Positions 20,554-42,152 of a stretch of DNA of 64,000 nucleotides are shown one piece after another. Made by a program: the position numbers and the translations under genes. Origin of the DNA: an archaeon (GTDB lineage: Archaea > Nanobdellota > Nanobdellia > Woesearchaeales > UBA9642); NCBI GenBank assembly GCA_020057295.1, contig JAGVGF010000003.1, forward strand, positions 186,236-250,235. The letters are read 5' to 3'. Below the pieces are notes generated by a model. The model searched no databases, was not told the origin of the DNA, and worked only from the letters and a program-made list of their open reading frames with translations. The first letter of the stretch is position 1, and each line of letters starts with the position of its first letter.

Positions 20554-20661
20554 GGCGACTGCCGGGGATTGAACTCGGTCCTCAGGCTTTCTGCCTTGTA
20601 TAGTCCACAAGCGTGAACTGTAATCCACAGGCCTGCATGCTACCATTACACAACAGTCGCC
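20554..20661 (-). tRNA. tRNA-His(GTG) with 36-nt intron
   Basis: Folds into a full cloverleaf. There is an encoded extra G at -1 opposite C73, the tRNA-His identity element. Stems: acceptor GCGACTG/CAGTCGC; D-stem GTGT/GCAT with GG in the loop; anticodon stem CAGGC/GCCTG with anticodon GTG; T-loop TTCAATC with one A-C mismatch in its stem. An intron (20589-20624) interrupts after position 37. The splice region fits a bulge-helix-bulge: bulge GG^A, 4-bp helix CTGT/GCAG, bulge AA^A. CCA is not encoded. 3' end taken at the discriminator base. Confidence 0.92.
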
Positions 20662-20902: not shown

Positions 20903-21018
20903 GGGTGTGTAGCGCAGCTTGGATAGCGCGACAGCCTTCTATTTGACTGCGTCTAATCCTTTTTGGACGCAACCAAAAAGTAAGCTGTAGGTCCGGGGTT
21001 CAAATCCCCGCACGCCCG
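20903..21018 (+). tRNA. tRNA-Arg(TCT) with 41-nt intron
   Basis: Cloverleaf: acceptor GGGTGTG/CACGCCC, D-stem GCGC/GCGC, anticodon stem ACAGC/GCTGT, anticodon TCT (reads AGA), T-stem CGGGG/CCCCG with loop TTCAAAT, discriminator G. The intron (20942-20982) follows A37. It contains an internal TGCGTC/GACGCA hairpin, and the splice bulges read TA^T and TA^A, consistent with the archaeal bulge-helix-bulge motif. CCA is not encoded. The stop codon of the convergent nucleotidyltransferase begins 1 nt beyond the tRNA. Confidence 0.93.
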
Positions 21019-22471: not shown

Positions 22472-22846
22472 ATGACAAAGAAATTATTTGCATTTTTTGC
22501 ACTAATTGTATTATCCTTTCTTCTGGTTGGATGTACTAAACAACTTTCTTGTAAAAATGTAATAGACTCTATACTTAAAGAAAATAAAACCCTTGATATA
22601 AATACTACGCGTCAATTAATGGAGCAGAAATATATTTCTGAAGGTTCTATCTATCCAAAATTTGCTGAAGGAAATCGTGGCATTAATCCTCCTATATCCT
22701 ATTTTGCTATCTTTATTTATAATGAGTCTGATAGGGGATATTATGATAGAGAATATTATTATGTGAATGGCGGATTTTATAGTCAAAAATGGCATGGTCC
22801 GTATAAAGGAAATACTCCTGCAGAATGTCGTCCGCCTAGTAAATAA
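22472..22846 (+). CDS. Small lipoprotein-like secreted protein
   Basis: 124 residues. The N-terminus has KK, a hydrophobic core and LVGC, a lipobox with the cysteine at about residue 21. The rest is a small soluble domain rich in Tyr and Gly with two more Cys. A TATTTAAATA box about 25 nt upstream suggests a leaderless transcript. Function not recognised; it probably sits on the outer face of the membrane. Confidence 0.7.
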   Translation: MTKKLFAFFALIVLSFLLVGCTKQLSCKNVIDSILKENKTLDINTTRQLMEQKYISEGSIYPKFAEGNRGINPPISYFAIFIYNESDRGYYDREYYYVNGGFYSQKWHGPYKGNTPAECRPPSK

Positions 22847-28153: not shown

Positions 28154-28251
28154 GCCAAAGAAATTCGTGTAAATTTCTTGGCCCAAAAAATCTTAAAGAT
28201 TTCTTTGGGATCAAAAACTATATATTGCGGGTTTTAGTTCATAGTTTTTGA
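28154..28251. repeat. Hairpin array A (three consecutive stem-loops)
   Basis: H1 28154-28182: GCCAA-(A)-GAAATT pairs with AATTTCTTGGC, one bulged A, 6-nt loop. H2 28182-28209: CCCAAAAAATCTT pairs with AAGATTT-(C)-TTTGGG, 1-nt loop. H3 28211-28251: TCAAAAACTAT pairs perfectly with ATAGTTTTTGA, 19-nt loop. The array ends just before AAGTTTATATATTT, the TATA region of the next gene. Motifs and order are shared with the array at 39864-40047. Not a CRISPR (no repeated spacer layout) and no ORF. Function unknown. Confidence 0.75.
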
Positions 28252-28287
28252 CATAAGTTTATATATTTGTAAGGATTGGTGATATTT

Positions 28288-29945: not shown

Positions 29946-30262
29946 GTAGGGTAGCGCTTGGTTGTGGGTAGCACATCTTAAACGGTGTGCAGCTCAGGAA
30001 AGTCCGCCCACTAAATAAAGGTCACTTACGGAAGTAAGAACTCTAATAAGGTTGGCTCCAACTCAGAAACGGAACCTGATGTTATAGGGATGATGGATAA
30101 AATTCTTGGCGACAAGATAATAAATCCTGACGTCGTGACATCGATGGTTGAAACGGTTAGTCCTGACCAGTGCAACTGCAGAACGCAGGCTTAGTCGAAT
30201 ACCAAGAAGATTTGCTCGTCGCAAGGCGAAGATCTACAGAAGGCGGCTTACAACTACCCTAC
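29946..30262 (+). ncRNA. rnpB: Archaeal RNase P RNA
   Basis: About 317 nt. P1 is formed by GTAGGGTAG at the 5' end and CTACCCTAC at the 3' end. The universally conserved CR-I element AGGAAAGTCCGCC occurs near nt 50 and CR-IV/CR-V ACAGAAGGCGGCTTA near the 3' end, with the P4 halves complementary. Other stems (for example AAGATTTGCTCG...CGAAGATCT-like) are visible between. The RNA is the catalytic core that trims tRNA 5' leaders. A T7 run at 30264-30270 follows as terminator. Ends are set by P1 pairing and could shift by a few bases. Confidence 0.93.
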
Positions 30263-39785: not shown

Positions 39786-39863
39786 GAGCATCCCTCCTTT
39801 TAAATATAATCCTATATTATCATAACTTATTTATAAATATTCTGCCTTTTATAGTCTATTATT

Positions 39864-40047
39864 ACAAAGAAATTGCACCACATCATAGCTCTTTATTTAT
39901 ATATGCAATTTCTTGTTCAAAGAAATCTTGCAAGATTTCTTGAACTGAAAATATTTAAAGATTTTCATGTTCCAAAAACTCGTGTTTAAACACTAATATG
40001 ACGTCTTAGGCTTTAACTTTATGATATATCTAAATAGCGAGTTTTTG
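39864..40047. repeat. Hairpin array B (four consecutive stem-loops)
   Basis: Part of the 355-bp gap 39786-40140, which holds no other gene. H1 39864-39916: ACAA-(A)-GAAATTGCA with TGCAATTTCTTGT, 26-nt loop. H2 39915-39945: GTTCAA-(A)-GAAATCTT with AAGATTTCTTGAAC, 2-nt loop, a near-perfect 31-bp palindrome. H3 39946-39967: TGAAAAT with ATTTTCA. H4 39973-40047: CAAAAACTCG with CGAGTTTTTG, a 55-nt loop that itself starts with GTGTTTAAACAC. Followed by GCTTTATATATTA, a TATA box. Shares motifs and bulged A with array A. Confidence 0.75.
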
Positions 40048-40140
40048 TTATCGTAAGCTTTATATATTACTGTGGTTAGGATATATACGGCAATACTTCG
40101 TTTAATAATACCTTATTCACCTAGCCAGTTTAGTCTAAAA

Positions 40141-40611
40141 ATGGAATCCTTTAACATATTACGAGCACAAGCTGAAGAGAAGCTTAAGATAGCGGATCAC
40201 TTAGTCGGTACAACCTATTCTTTGGTTAAGGAACCAAAATTATTAGTTTCAGTAATTGAAAATATTTATTTAGCATTTGACCTGGCAATAAGTTCATTAT
40301 TGGAGTATGAAAAAAATTTTAAGACAATACCAAGTTATAGTAACAGTTTTGAAAGCAAATTCGAATTATTCAGAAGAAAAATAGTCACAAAATATAATAT
40401 CAAAAGTGAAATTCCAGAATTTATATTAGATATTAAGAAAACATTAGATGAACACAAAAAATCTAGCGTTGAATTCATACGTAAAGAAACATTCGTCATA
40501 TCAGATAATAATTACAATCTTACAACTCTAAAAATTGAAGATGTTAAAAAAACATTAACTAAAGCTAAACATTATTTTGAAGAGTTGTTTAAGATCATTA
40601 AATATACTTAA
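40141..40611 (+). CDS. HEPN-like helical protein, function unknown
   Basis: 156 residues from the ATG at 40141; a GTG 69 nt upstream extends the frame but lies only 15 nt from the TATA box, so it is less likely. All-helical, with 'AEEKLKIADHLVG' at the start and 'TKAKHYFEELFKII' at the end, patterns seen in HEPN and other small helical bundles; no clear RxxxxH nuclease motif. It stands immediately upstream of another helical gene and downstream of hairpin array B. Start and family are uncertain. Confidence 0.55.
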   Translation: MESFNILRAQAEEKLKIADHLVGTTYSLVKEPKLLVSVIENIYLAFDLAISSLLEYEKNFKTIPSYSNSFESKFELFRRKIVTKYNIKSEIPEFILDIKKTLDEHKKSSVEFIRKETFVISDNNYNLTTLKIEDVKKTLTKAKHYFEELFKIIKYT

Positions 40612-40631
40612 AATTCGCGAGGTTTAATAAA

Positions 40632-41450
40632 ATGAGAGATGCTATTGAAAACGCTGTTGAAGAACTAAAACGTGTAGACCATTCGATATTCGTGAGTCTA
40701 AAATATACTAGAACTGTCGATATTCTTATTAATATTCTTATTAGAATGGTTGATTGCTACGAATTTTTAATGTTAGCATTATTAAAGTATGCTGTAGAAA
40801 ATAAAATGATTGGAGAAATTCCAACCACTCCTAAAGAGCGTGCATTATTATTGAAGGAAGTGTATAAGGAACAGGAAGTTCACAATAATGTAGACTTATA
40901 TTTGTTGTTAAAGGCAATGCTTAAGAGTAATTATGGTAAAGAAAATGAATACAGAAGACATGTTGCAATGCGTGCAATAGTTGCTGGTAGAGAAGAGATA
41001 ATTAACATAAATATTATATCGCAATATTATGAATATTTAACTGCATTCTTTCATTTAGTAGATAATCTAACTAAAGGAACATACGTTTTAGGAACAGGAG
41101 TATTGATGCAAGAAGGAATTATAGAAACTACCGATGAAGAAAATCCTAATAATCCTTATTGGACTCAAGTTGAAGAAATGAAAAAGGAAGCTGCAATGGA
41201 AATTGCACGTGATAAAGAAATTAAGGAAAGAATTAGGGCAGAAAAGGCTACACGTGAAGTTGAGAGAAGTAAACGTTATGAGGATATGAAACCTAAGAGA
41301 ATCACTAAACGTAAACCTAAGATAAAACCTAAAAGAATTGTGCCTGCAGAACGTTTAAAAATGTTAGAGTTAAAGAAACAGGCTAAGAAACGTATAGAAA
41401 AAGATAAGAAGAAACCTAAAAAGCCAGCTAAGAAGAAAGGTAAGAAATAA
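40632..41450 (+). CDS. Helical protein with a long basic C-terminal tail
   Basis: 272 residues. Residues 1-170 are helical, resembling the preceding protein in general layout. From about residue 200 the sequence becomes almost purely Lys/Arg/Pro (KRITKRKPKIKPKR..., KKPKKPAKKKGKK), a histone-tail-like stretch likely to bind nucleic acid or the ribosome. GAGG upstream of the ATG is a ribosome binding site. Probably cotranscribed with the gene at 40141. Function unknown. Confidence 0.62.
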   Translation: MRDAIENAVEELKRVDHSIFVSLKYTRTVDILINILIRMVDCYEFLMLALLKYAVENKMIGEIPTTPKERALLLKEVYKEQEVHNNVDLYLLLKAMLKSNYGKENEYRRHVAMRAIVAGREEIININIISQYYEYLTAFFHLVDNLTKGTYVLGTGVLMQEGIIETTDEENPNNPYWTQVEEMKKEAAMEIARDKEIKERIRAEKATREVERSKRYEDMKPKRITKRKPKIKPKRIVPAERLKMLELKKQAKKRIEKDKKKPKKPAKKKGKK

Positions 41451-41457
41451 ATATTAT

Positions 41458-41490
41458 TTTTTTAATTGTTTTTTAATTGTTTTTTAATTG
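41458..41490 (+). repeat. Three tandem copies of TTTTTTAATTG
   Basis: Three perfect, contiguous 11-bp units between the basic-tail protein and the MinD-like gene, ending where the GAGGTG ribosome binding site starts. Each unit contains T6, which in Archaea can promote termination, so it may be a graded terminator/attenuator ahead of the MinD-like gene, or simply slippage. Confidence 0.6.
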
Positions 41491-41498
41491 AGGTGTGT

Positions 41499-42152
41499 AT
41501 GGTCAGAGTAATATCAATAATATCTTTGGGTGAAGGTACAGGAAAAACTACAACAGCACTAAATCTGGGATTATTATTGCATAACATGAACAACAGAGTT
41601 CTAGTGTTTGATACAGACTTTAACAAACATAATATGATTGATCATCTAGATATACACAATTTACCTGTAGATATAGGTCATGTTCTTGATGGAGAATCAC
41701 ATATCAACAACGCAATATACAAACATACAACAGGTCTAAGAATTATTCCATCAAAAATTCATGATTATCAGGACTTATCTTATCATTTTCAAGATTTACT
41801 CGGGGATTATGATTTCATAATACTTGATACTCCTTCAAAACAGCCAGATTTAGATGTTGTATTAAAAAATTCTAACGAAGCAATAATAGTTCATCACCCA
41901 AAATATTCATCAAAAATAATTCTTGATGCATCAGATTTACTTGAGAGACATAAAATACTAAATCTTGGAATAGTATTAAATGGTGTAACAGATGGAAGTG
42001 TTGATGAAATATTTAAGAATCCAGTTCTAGTAAAAATACCAGAACACAAAGATGTTGTACGTGCGTTTGCTCTAAAAAATCCTGTCGTATATACACATCC
42101 AAAAAGCCTAGTCACAAAAAGATTCGAATTGTTAGCAAAGCTGTTAGGATAA
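41499..42152 (+). CDS. MinD/ParA-like P-loop ATPase
   Basis: 218 residues from the ATG preceded by GAGGTG; the longer frame begins in the tandem repeat and is rejected. Walker A is GEGTGKTTT, followed by 'VLVFDTDFNKHN' (switch I, D-x-D) and 'DFIILDTPSK' (switch II). The overall layout is MinD/ParA/SIMIBI. The signature lysine of the deviant Walker A (KGGxGKT) is replaced by Gly. C-terminal part short. Role in positioning or partition cannot be told; no ParB, MinC or chromosome-site partner is adjacent. Confidence 0.82.
   Translation: MVRVISIISLGEGTGKTTTALNLGLLLHNMNNRVLVFDTDFNKHNMIDHLDIHNLPVDIGHVLDGESHINNAIYKHTTGLRIIPSKIHDYQDLSYHFQDLLGDYDFIILDTPSKQPDLDVVLKNSNEAIIVHHPKYSSKIILDASDLLERHKILNLGIVLNGVTDGSVDEIFKNPVLVKIPEHKDVVRAFALKNPVVYTHPKSLVTKRFELLAKLLG

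Follow-up and report, generated by a model that had tools for sequence, protein, structure and literature searches.

A chain of hairpins in Woesearchaeota genomes, best read as a new family of non-autonomous mobile elements

The hairpin array at positions 39864-40047 of the window (the whole stretch of 64,000 nucleotides that was analysed) is best read as a non-autonomous mobile element built as a hairpin chain and belonging to a new family found in Woesearchaeota. Its closest known counterparts are the PATEs, the palindrome-associated transposable elements of Haloquadratum, which are mobile even though the TnpA genes are mostly broken (PMC3119063). It is very likely that the family is mobile DNA, and we regard movement by IS200/IS605-like single-strand transposition as probable, with moderate confidence. 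A literature search found no description of this hairpin-chain family, and few descriptions exist of repeats in DPANN archaea; in Woesearchaeota genomes the family would account for many contig breaks and for odd hairpins between genes.

Results

Hairpin arrays in the window

The first-pass annotation had described array B as four consecutive stem-loops, and reading of the sequence at 39864-40047 bore this out. The features of array B and of the second copy, array A, are as follows.

39862..39865, + strand: left junction TTAC of element B, a target-like tetranucleotide also seen at related copies in G116 and G001
39866..40051, + strand: whole element B, AAAGAAATT... to ...TTTTTGTTAT, with bounds set by homology to the copies of other genomes
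39865..39915, + strand: hairpin H1, CAA(A)GAAATTGCA...TGCAATTTCTTG with a bulged A, from the sequence, a stem scan and alignment with L037
39915..39945, + strand: hairpin H2, GTTCAA(A)GAAATCTT-gc-AAGATTTCTTGAAC, with linkers GTTC (39915-39918) and GAAC (39942-39945), from covariance model R1
39942..39972, + strand: hairpin H3 with both linkers, TGAAAAT...ATTTTCA at 39946-39967, from the linker rule and stem covariation
39973..40047, + strand: hairpin H4, CAAAAACTCG...CGAGTTTTTG, with a 55-nt interior, from the sequence and the centroid fold
40048..40051, + strand: right-end TTAT of element B, a right end conserved among relatives
40059..40067, + strand: TTTATATAT, a TATA-like word outside element B, one of eight such words in the window
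28154..28254, + strand: array A, a decayed copy, with ends TGCC and ACAT, from an R1 match and the sequence
28154-28182, 28182-28209 and 28211-28251, + strand: the hairpins of array A, with linkers GCC/GGC and CCC/GGG

The bounds 39866-40051, which start after TTAC and end with TTAT, are the better ones for element B; a TTAT at 39860-39863 overlaps the left-junction TTAC. The bulged A is identical in H1 and H2, the linker GAAC at 39942-39945 is common to H2 and H3, and the second linker of H3 is GTTC at 39969-39972. Nested-hairpin analysis placed a decayed CTTTAG-type hairpin within the loop of H1.

Arrays A and B had been taken for members of one family, in which the order of the hairpins is fixed and the bulge recurs. 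This was confirmed by the R1 model, which was trained on the core of array B and six relatives with array A left out, and which nevertheless found array A on both strands at 38 bits (E about 1e-6). Array A is best explained as an older, decayed copy of the element family of array B, and it has three hairpins, not the four first reported. The word ACTCGTGTT does occur in both regions as claimed, but not at a homologous position, since the copy in B overlaps H4 on its 5' arm, whereas the copy in A is upstream of the array. A genome-wide search for bulged palindromes, as the first-pass annotation had envisaged, was run with the pattern CAAAGAAATN{4,34}ATTTYTTG over the window's 1.2-Mb genome and matched only arrays A and B and one coding-frame site at 22476. 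The feature is confined in this genome to two sites, 12 kb apart, a spacing that may reflect a local hop or chance. These only copies in the 1.2-Mb genome, A (28154-28254) and B (39866-40051), have the same orientation, and each lies in a divergent intergenic region.

Distribution among Woesearchaeota

When the array B region was compared with 60 relatives by blastn, the same hairpin chain turned up, with 71-85% identity, in further families of the order, and one genome (G052) held four near-identical copies. The conserved layout is H1; H2, as TTCAA(A)GAAATC..GATTTCTTGAA; H3; TTCC; H4; and then TTTTTGTTAT. R1 matched 51 of the 288 genomes of the archaeal order at E<=1e-6 and 156 of them at E<=0.1, though some of the weakest of these (E 0.01-0.1) are probably accidental. 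The named hosts are Candidatus Woesearchaeota, and in GTDB genomes a strict pattern occurred only there and in one bacterial contig, a match taken as chance; viral contigs had no strict-pattern match. The closest relatives of the window's genome, G002 and G003, gave zero R1 matches. Many copies are present per genome by R1 matches, and many of them stand at contig ends. The element measures about 105-425 bp between its junctions and has no coding capacity and no ORF inside.

Stem covariation and the linker rule

In the alignment of seven sequences that served to build R1, nine stem pairs had changed on both sides, a number reached in 0 of 500 shuffles. In a larger alignment of 91 distinct rows, which was fitted to the structure, 18 of 20 pairs had changed on both sides. 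The linkers follow a rule of their own: every linker is complementary to both neighbours, for example GTTC-GAAC-GTTC and GTGC-GCAC-GTGC, and those seen were GTTC, GAAC, GTGC, GCAC, GTAC, GGAC and others. Among 75 distinct R1 matches, partly dependent because some arrays entered on both strands, 98% of positions paired between linkers L1 and L2 (62% when shuffled) and 86% between L2 and L3 (66% when shuffled), and only the L1:L2 pairing was included in R1; both pairings were satisfied in 60 matches, G-T allowed. Successive hairpins are therefore overlapping palindromes that share one linker, and the full extension of both at once is impossible. This double complementarity is a clear structural rule that calls for a recognising protein.

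Ends, junctions and empty sites

Copies with sharp common ends and unrelated flanks were found in five genomes (G147, G102, G090, G052 and G116), and those of G052 and G090 are 91-97% identical. The left junction was TTAT or TTAC in 33 of 35 cases from nine genomes (the other two were GTAT and CTAT), against a background of 1.2% for TTAY in these loci; the count omits pattern matches in coding DNA and rows sharing upstream sequence (L089, L091, L149, L150), and no exact probability is claimed for it because copies of the same genome are partly dependent. The right ends are also TTAT or TTAC with few exceptions, the example ends being TTAT|TGAAAATC...TTTTTGTTAT|. The two words may differ, with TTAC on the left and TTAT on the right in L090, L038 and the window copy, which fits IS200/IS605 better than target duplication. 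Head-to-tail copies share a single TTAT or TTAC word in L095, L124 and L130. Ends read in five copy sets showed palindromes near both ends and no terminal inverted repeats. Two copies of G147 (L086, L087) were compared with the sister species G113 and G170, where the orthologous intergenic regions hold no element; the one readable empty site has its junction in T-rich sequence and places the cut only approximately. Integron attC sites were dropped as a candidate on the ends alone, which are conserved as TTAT/TTAC and are not the attC core.

Several single copies deserve mention. In the single-contig genome G015, which has neither Y1 nor above-threshold TnpB, L141 and L142 are 92% identical over 135 bp, with GTGC/GCAC linkers and GTGTTAT ends. 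The copy at L048 of G052 lies directly 3' of an apparent tRNA gene. At L085 and L108 of G147, simpler two-hairpin units, e.g. CAAAAAGC..GCTTTTTG-GGACTCC-CAAAAATC..GATTTTTG, stand near a Y1 gene and near arrays, and are perhaps a reduced form of the hairpin-chain element.

Discussion

Comparison with known elements

The element resembles PATEs in being archaeal and non-coding, with many divergent copies, no terminal inverted repeats and palindromes near the ends, and likewise in its short target word and in movement despite scarce intact TnpA (PMC3119063); it may also share the lack of target duplication, to judge from left and right words that sometimes differ and from the T-rich empty site. 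As in PATEs, the copies are many and too short for a transposase gene. Unlike PATEs, they line up three or four hairpins in a chain whose linkers are complementary to both neighbours, and the analysis found no parental IS605 element that shares their ends. IS200/IS605 elements are marked by insertion 3' of a fixed tetranucleotide, absence of inverted repeats and hairpins at both ends (PMC7290912; PMC5934647), and IS608 inserts 3' of TTAC with the guide AAAG (PMC5934647). The element shares with IS608 the insertion 3' of TTAC, the lack of inverted repeats, the hairpins at both ends and a guide-like AAAG beside TTAC, and it agrees with the wider group in inserting 3' of a fixed tetra- or pentanucleotide; it differs in lacking tnpA and tnpB, in having TTAT/TTAC and not TCAA at the right end, and in its extra internal hairpins. 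REP/BIME sequences with TnpA-REP (PMC8266576) are similar in the tetranucleotide followed by a bulged palindrome, the inverted neighbours and the dispersed, intergenic location, but here the tetranucleotides vary and are not GTAG, the linkers pair with both neighbours and the insertion junctions are defined as TTAT/TTAC. MITEs are also short, non-coding and dispersed, whereas this element has no terminal inverted repeats and no target duplication beyond a possible TTAT/TTAC.

Mode of movement and the mobilising enzyme

On the favoured reading, the element would move as folded single-stranded DNA. The cutting and joining would be done in trans, either by an IS200/IS605-type Y1 HUH transposase or by a comparable nickase, and the mobilising enzyme would recognise the bulged hairpins, as proposed for PATEs. 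Copies behind TTAC start with AAAG and those behind TTAT with ..AAAA (p 0.01 by Fisher's test, with no correction for relatedness). Hairpins with a CTTTAG apex stand at fixed places in H1 and H4, where they are 7.7 times commoner than in flanking DNA, and these nested hairpins resemble those at the ends of Y1 elements that the genomes also carry. The guide-like words and the CTTTAG hairpins are leads, not proof of IS200/IS605-type movement.

Against these leads stands the distribution of transposases. The Y1 domain (PF01797) is present in 101 of the 288 genomes of the order, not preferentially in element carriers and with no significant association. It is lacking in 12 of the 26 genomes with high copy numbers, in the window's complete genome and in the single-contig G015, and TnpB exceeded the cut-off in only 1 of 14 carriers. 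No autonomous partner and no parental IS605 element sharing these ends came to light: the surroundings of 21 Y1 loci gave no R1 match, and the IS605 copy of G116 has ends that differ from those of the element. A search for IS91-type Y2_Tnp had no match, but its control genomes had none either, so that this negative carries no weight.

A rival reading is that the element is mobile but moved by another enzyme than IS200/IS605 TnpA, such as a replication-type nickase of plasmids or viruses, or that the host's own recombination or replication works on the folded single strands. This is suggested by G090, G102, G052 and G015, which have high copy numbers and similar copies with no Y1 or above-threshold TnpB. 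We consider it rather unlikely, because the junction words, the absent inverted repeats and the bulged hairpins closely match IS200/IS605, the transposase may have been lost after movement and most of these genomes are incomplete; the lack of strict-pattern matches in viral contigs also speaks against it. In a bolder form, which we hold to be unlikely, the hairpin chains with their shared tetranucleotide linkers would be a mobile class of their own, amplified without a known single-strand transposase and so moved by an unrecognised enzyme or by host replication and recombination proteins. Copy number and known transposases do not match, which turns the mobiliser into a question that can be tested.

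Genomic context

A regulatory role was also weighed, in which the palindromes would be operators, or an RNA attenuator, controlling the two downstream genes beside a TATA box. Both window copies are indeed in divergent intergenic regions and stop shortly before TTTATATAT; the gap is 3 nt in A and 7 nt in B, so that the word does not follow at once as had been stated. In other copies TTTATATAT is not part of the element. For 48 copies both neighbouring genes could be seen; these genes are convergent at 20 copies, tandem at 19 and divergent at 9, the orientation relative to tandem genes is unbiased (9 to 10), and the dispersed copies adjoin unrelated genes. In G002 and G003, moreover, the array is missing at the orthologues of the downstream gene. 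Such a distribution of contexts fits a mobile element and does not fit a regulatory site common to two genes. The fixed TATA-proximal position proposed earlier is accordingly not a property of the family, promoter-linked regulation is ruled out by the context counts as a general explanation, and the regulatory reading is very unlikely. We read the position of TTTATATAT next to both window copies as insertion that spared promoters, and the two copies are probably fixed remnants of the mobile family, whose location upstream of promoters would be owed to chance and survival.

It is still less probable that the array is a structured non-coding RNA gene or a terminator array repeated in the genome. 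In favour of it the stems covary strongly, but G-T and A-C mismatches in them are equally rare (12 and 11), and this lack of a G-U excess makes selection for an RNA fold unlikely and fits DNA. There is also no strand bias to the neighbouring genes, and the arrays had no Rfam match above the gathering score, the window's only matches being RNase P and tRNAs. Chance palindromes in AT-rich DNA are a negligible explanation even at the 31% G+C of the window and with partly accidental weakest model matches, given the near-identical copies elsewhere, the covariation controls and the folds of arrays A (z -3.5, 0/200 dinucleotide shuffles as good) and B (z -2.9, 1/200). Non-overlapping hairpins with stems of at least 11 pairs number 21 in the 64 kb, and four of them belong to arrays A and B.

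Other features of the window were recorded. Positions 40141-41450 encode two adjacent alpha-helical proteins with no Pfam match, which, judged by eye, are possibly HEPN-like; the first is present in 30 of 40 relatives, often adjoining a second copy, and a ParA-like ATPase comes next at 41466-42152. An archaeal RNase P RNA lies at 29949-30259. Two tRNA genes at 20903-21018 and 20554-20660, each longer than 100 nt and missed by ARAGORN, probably hold introns.
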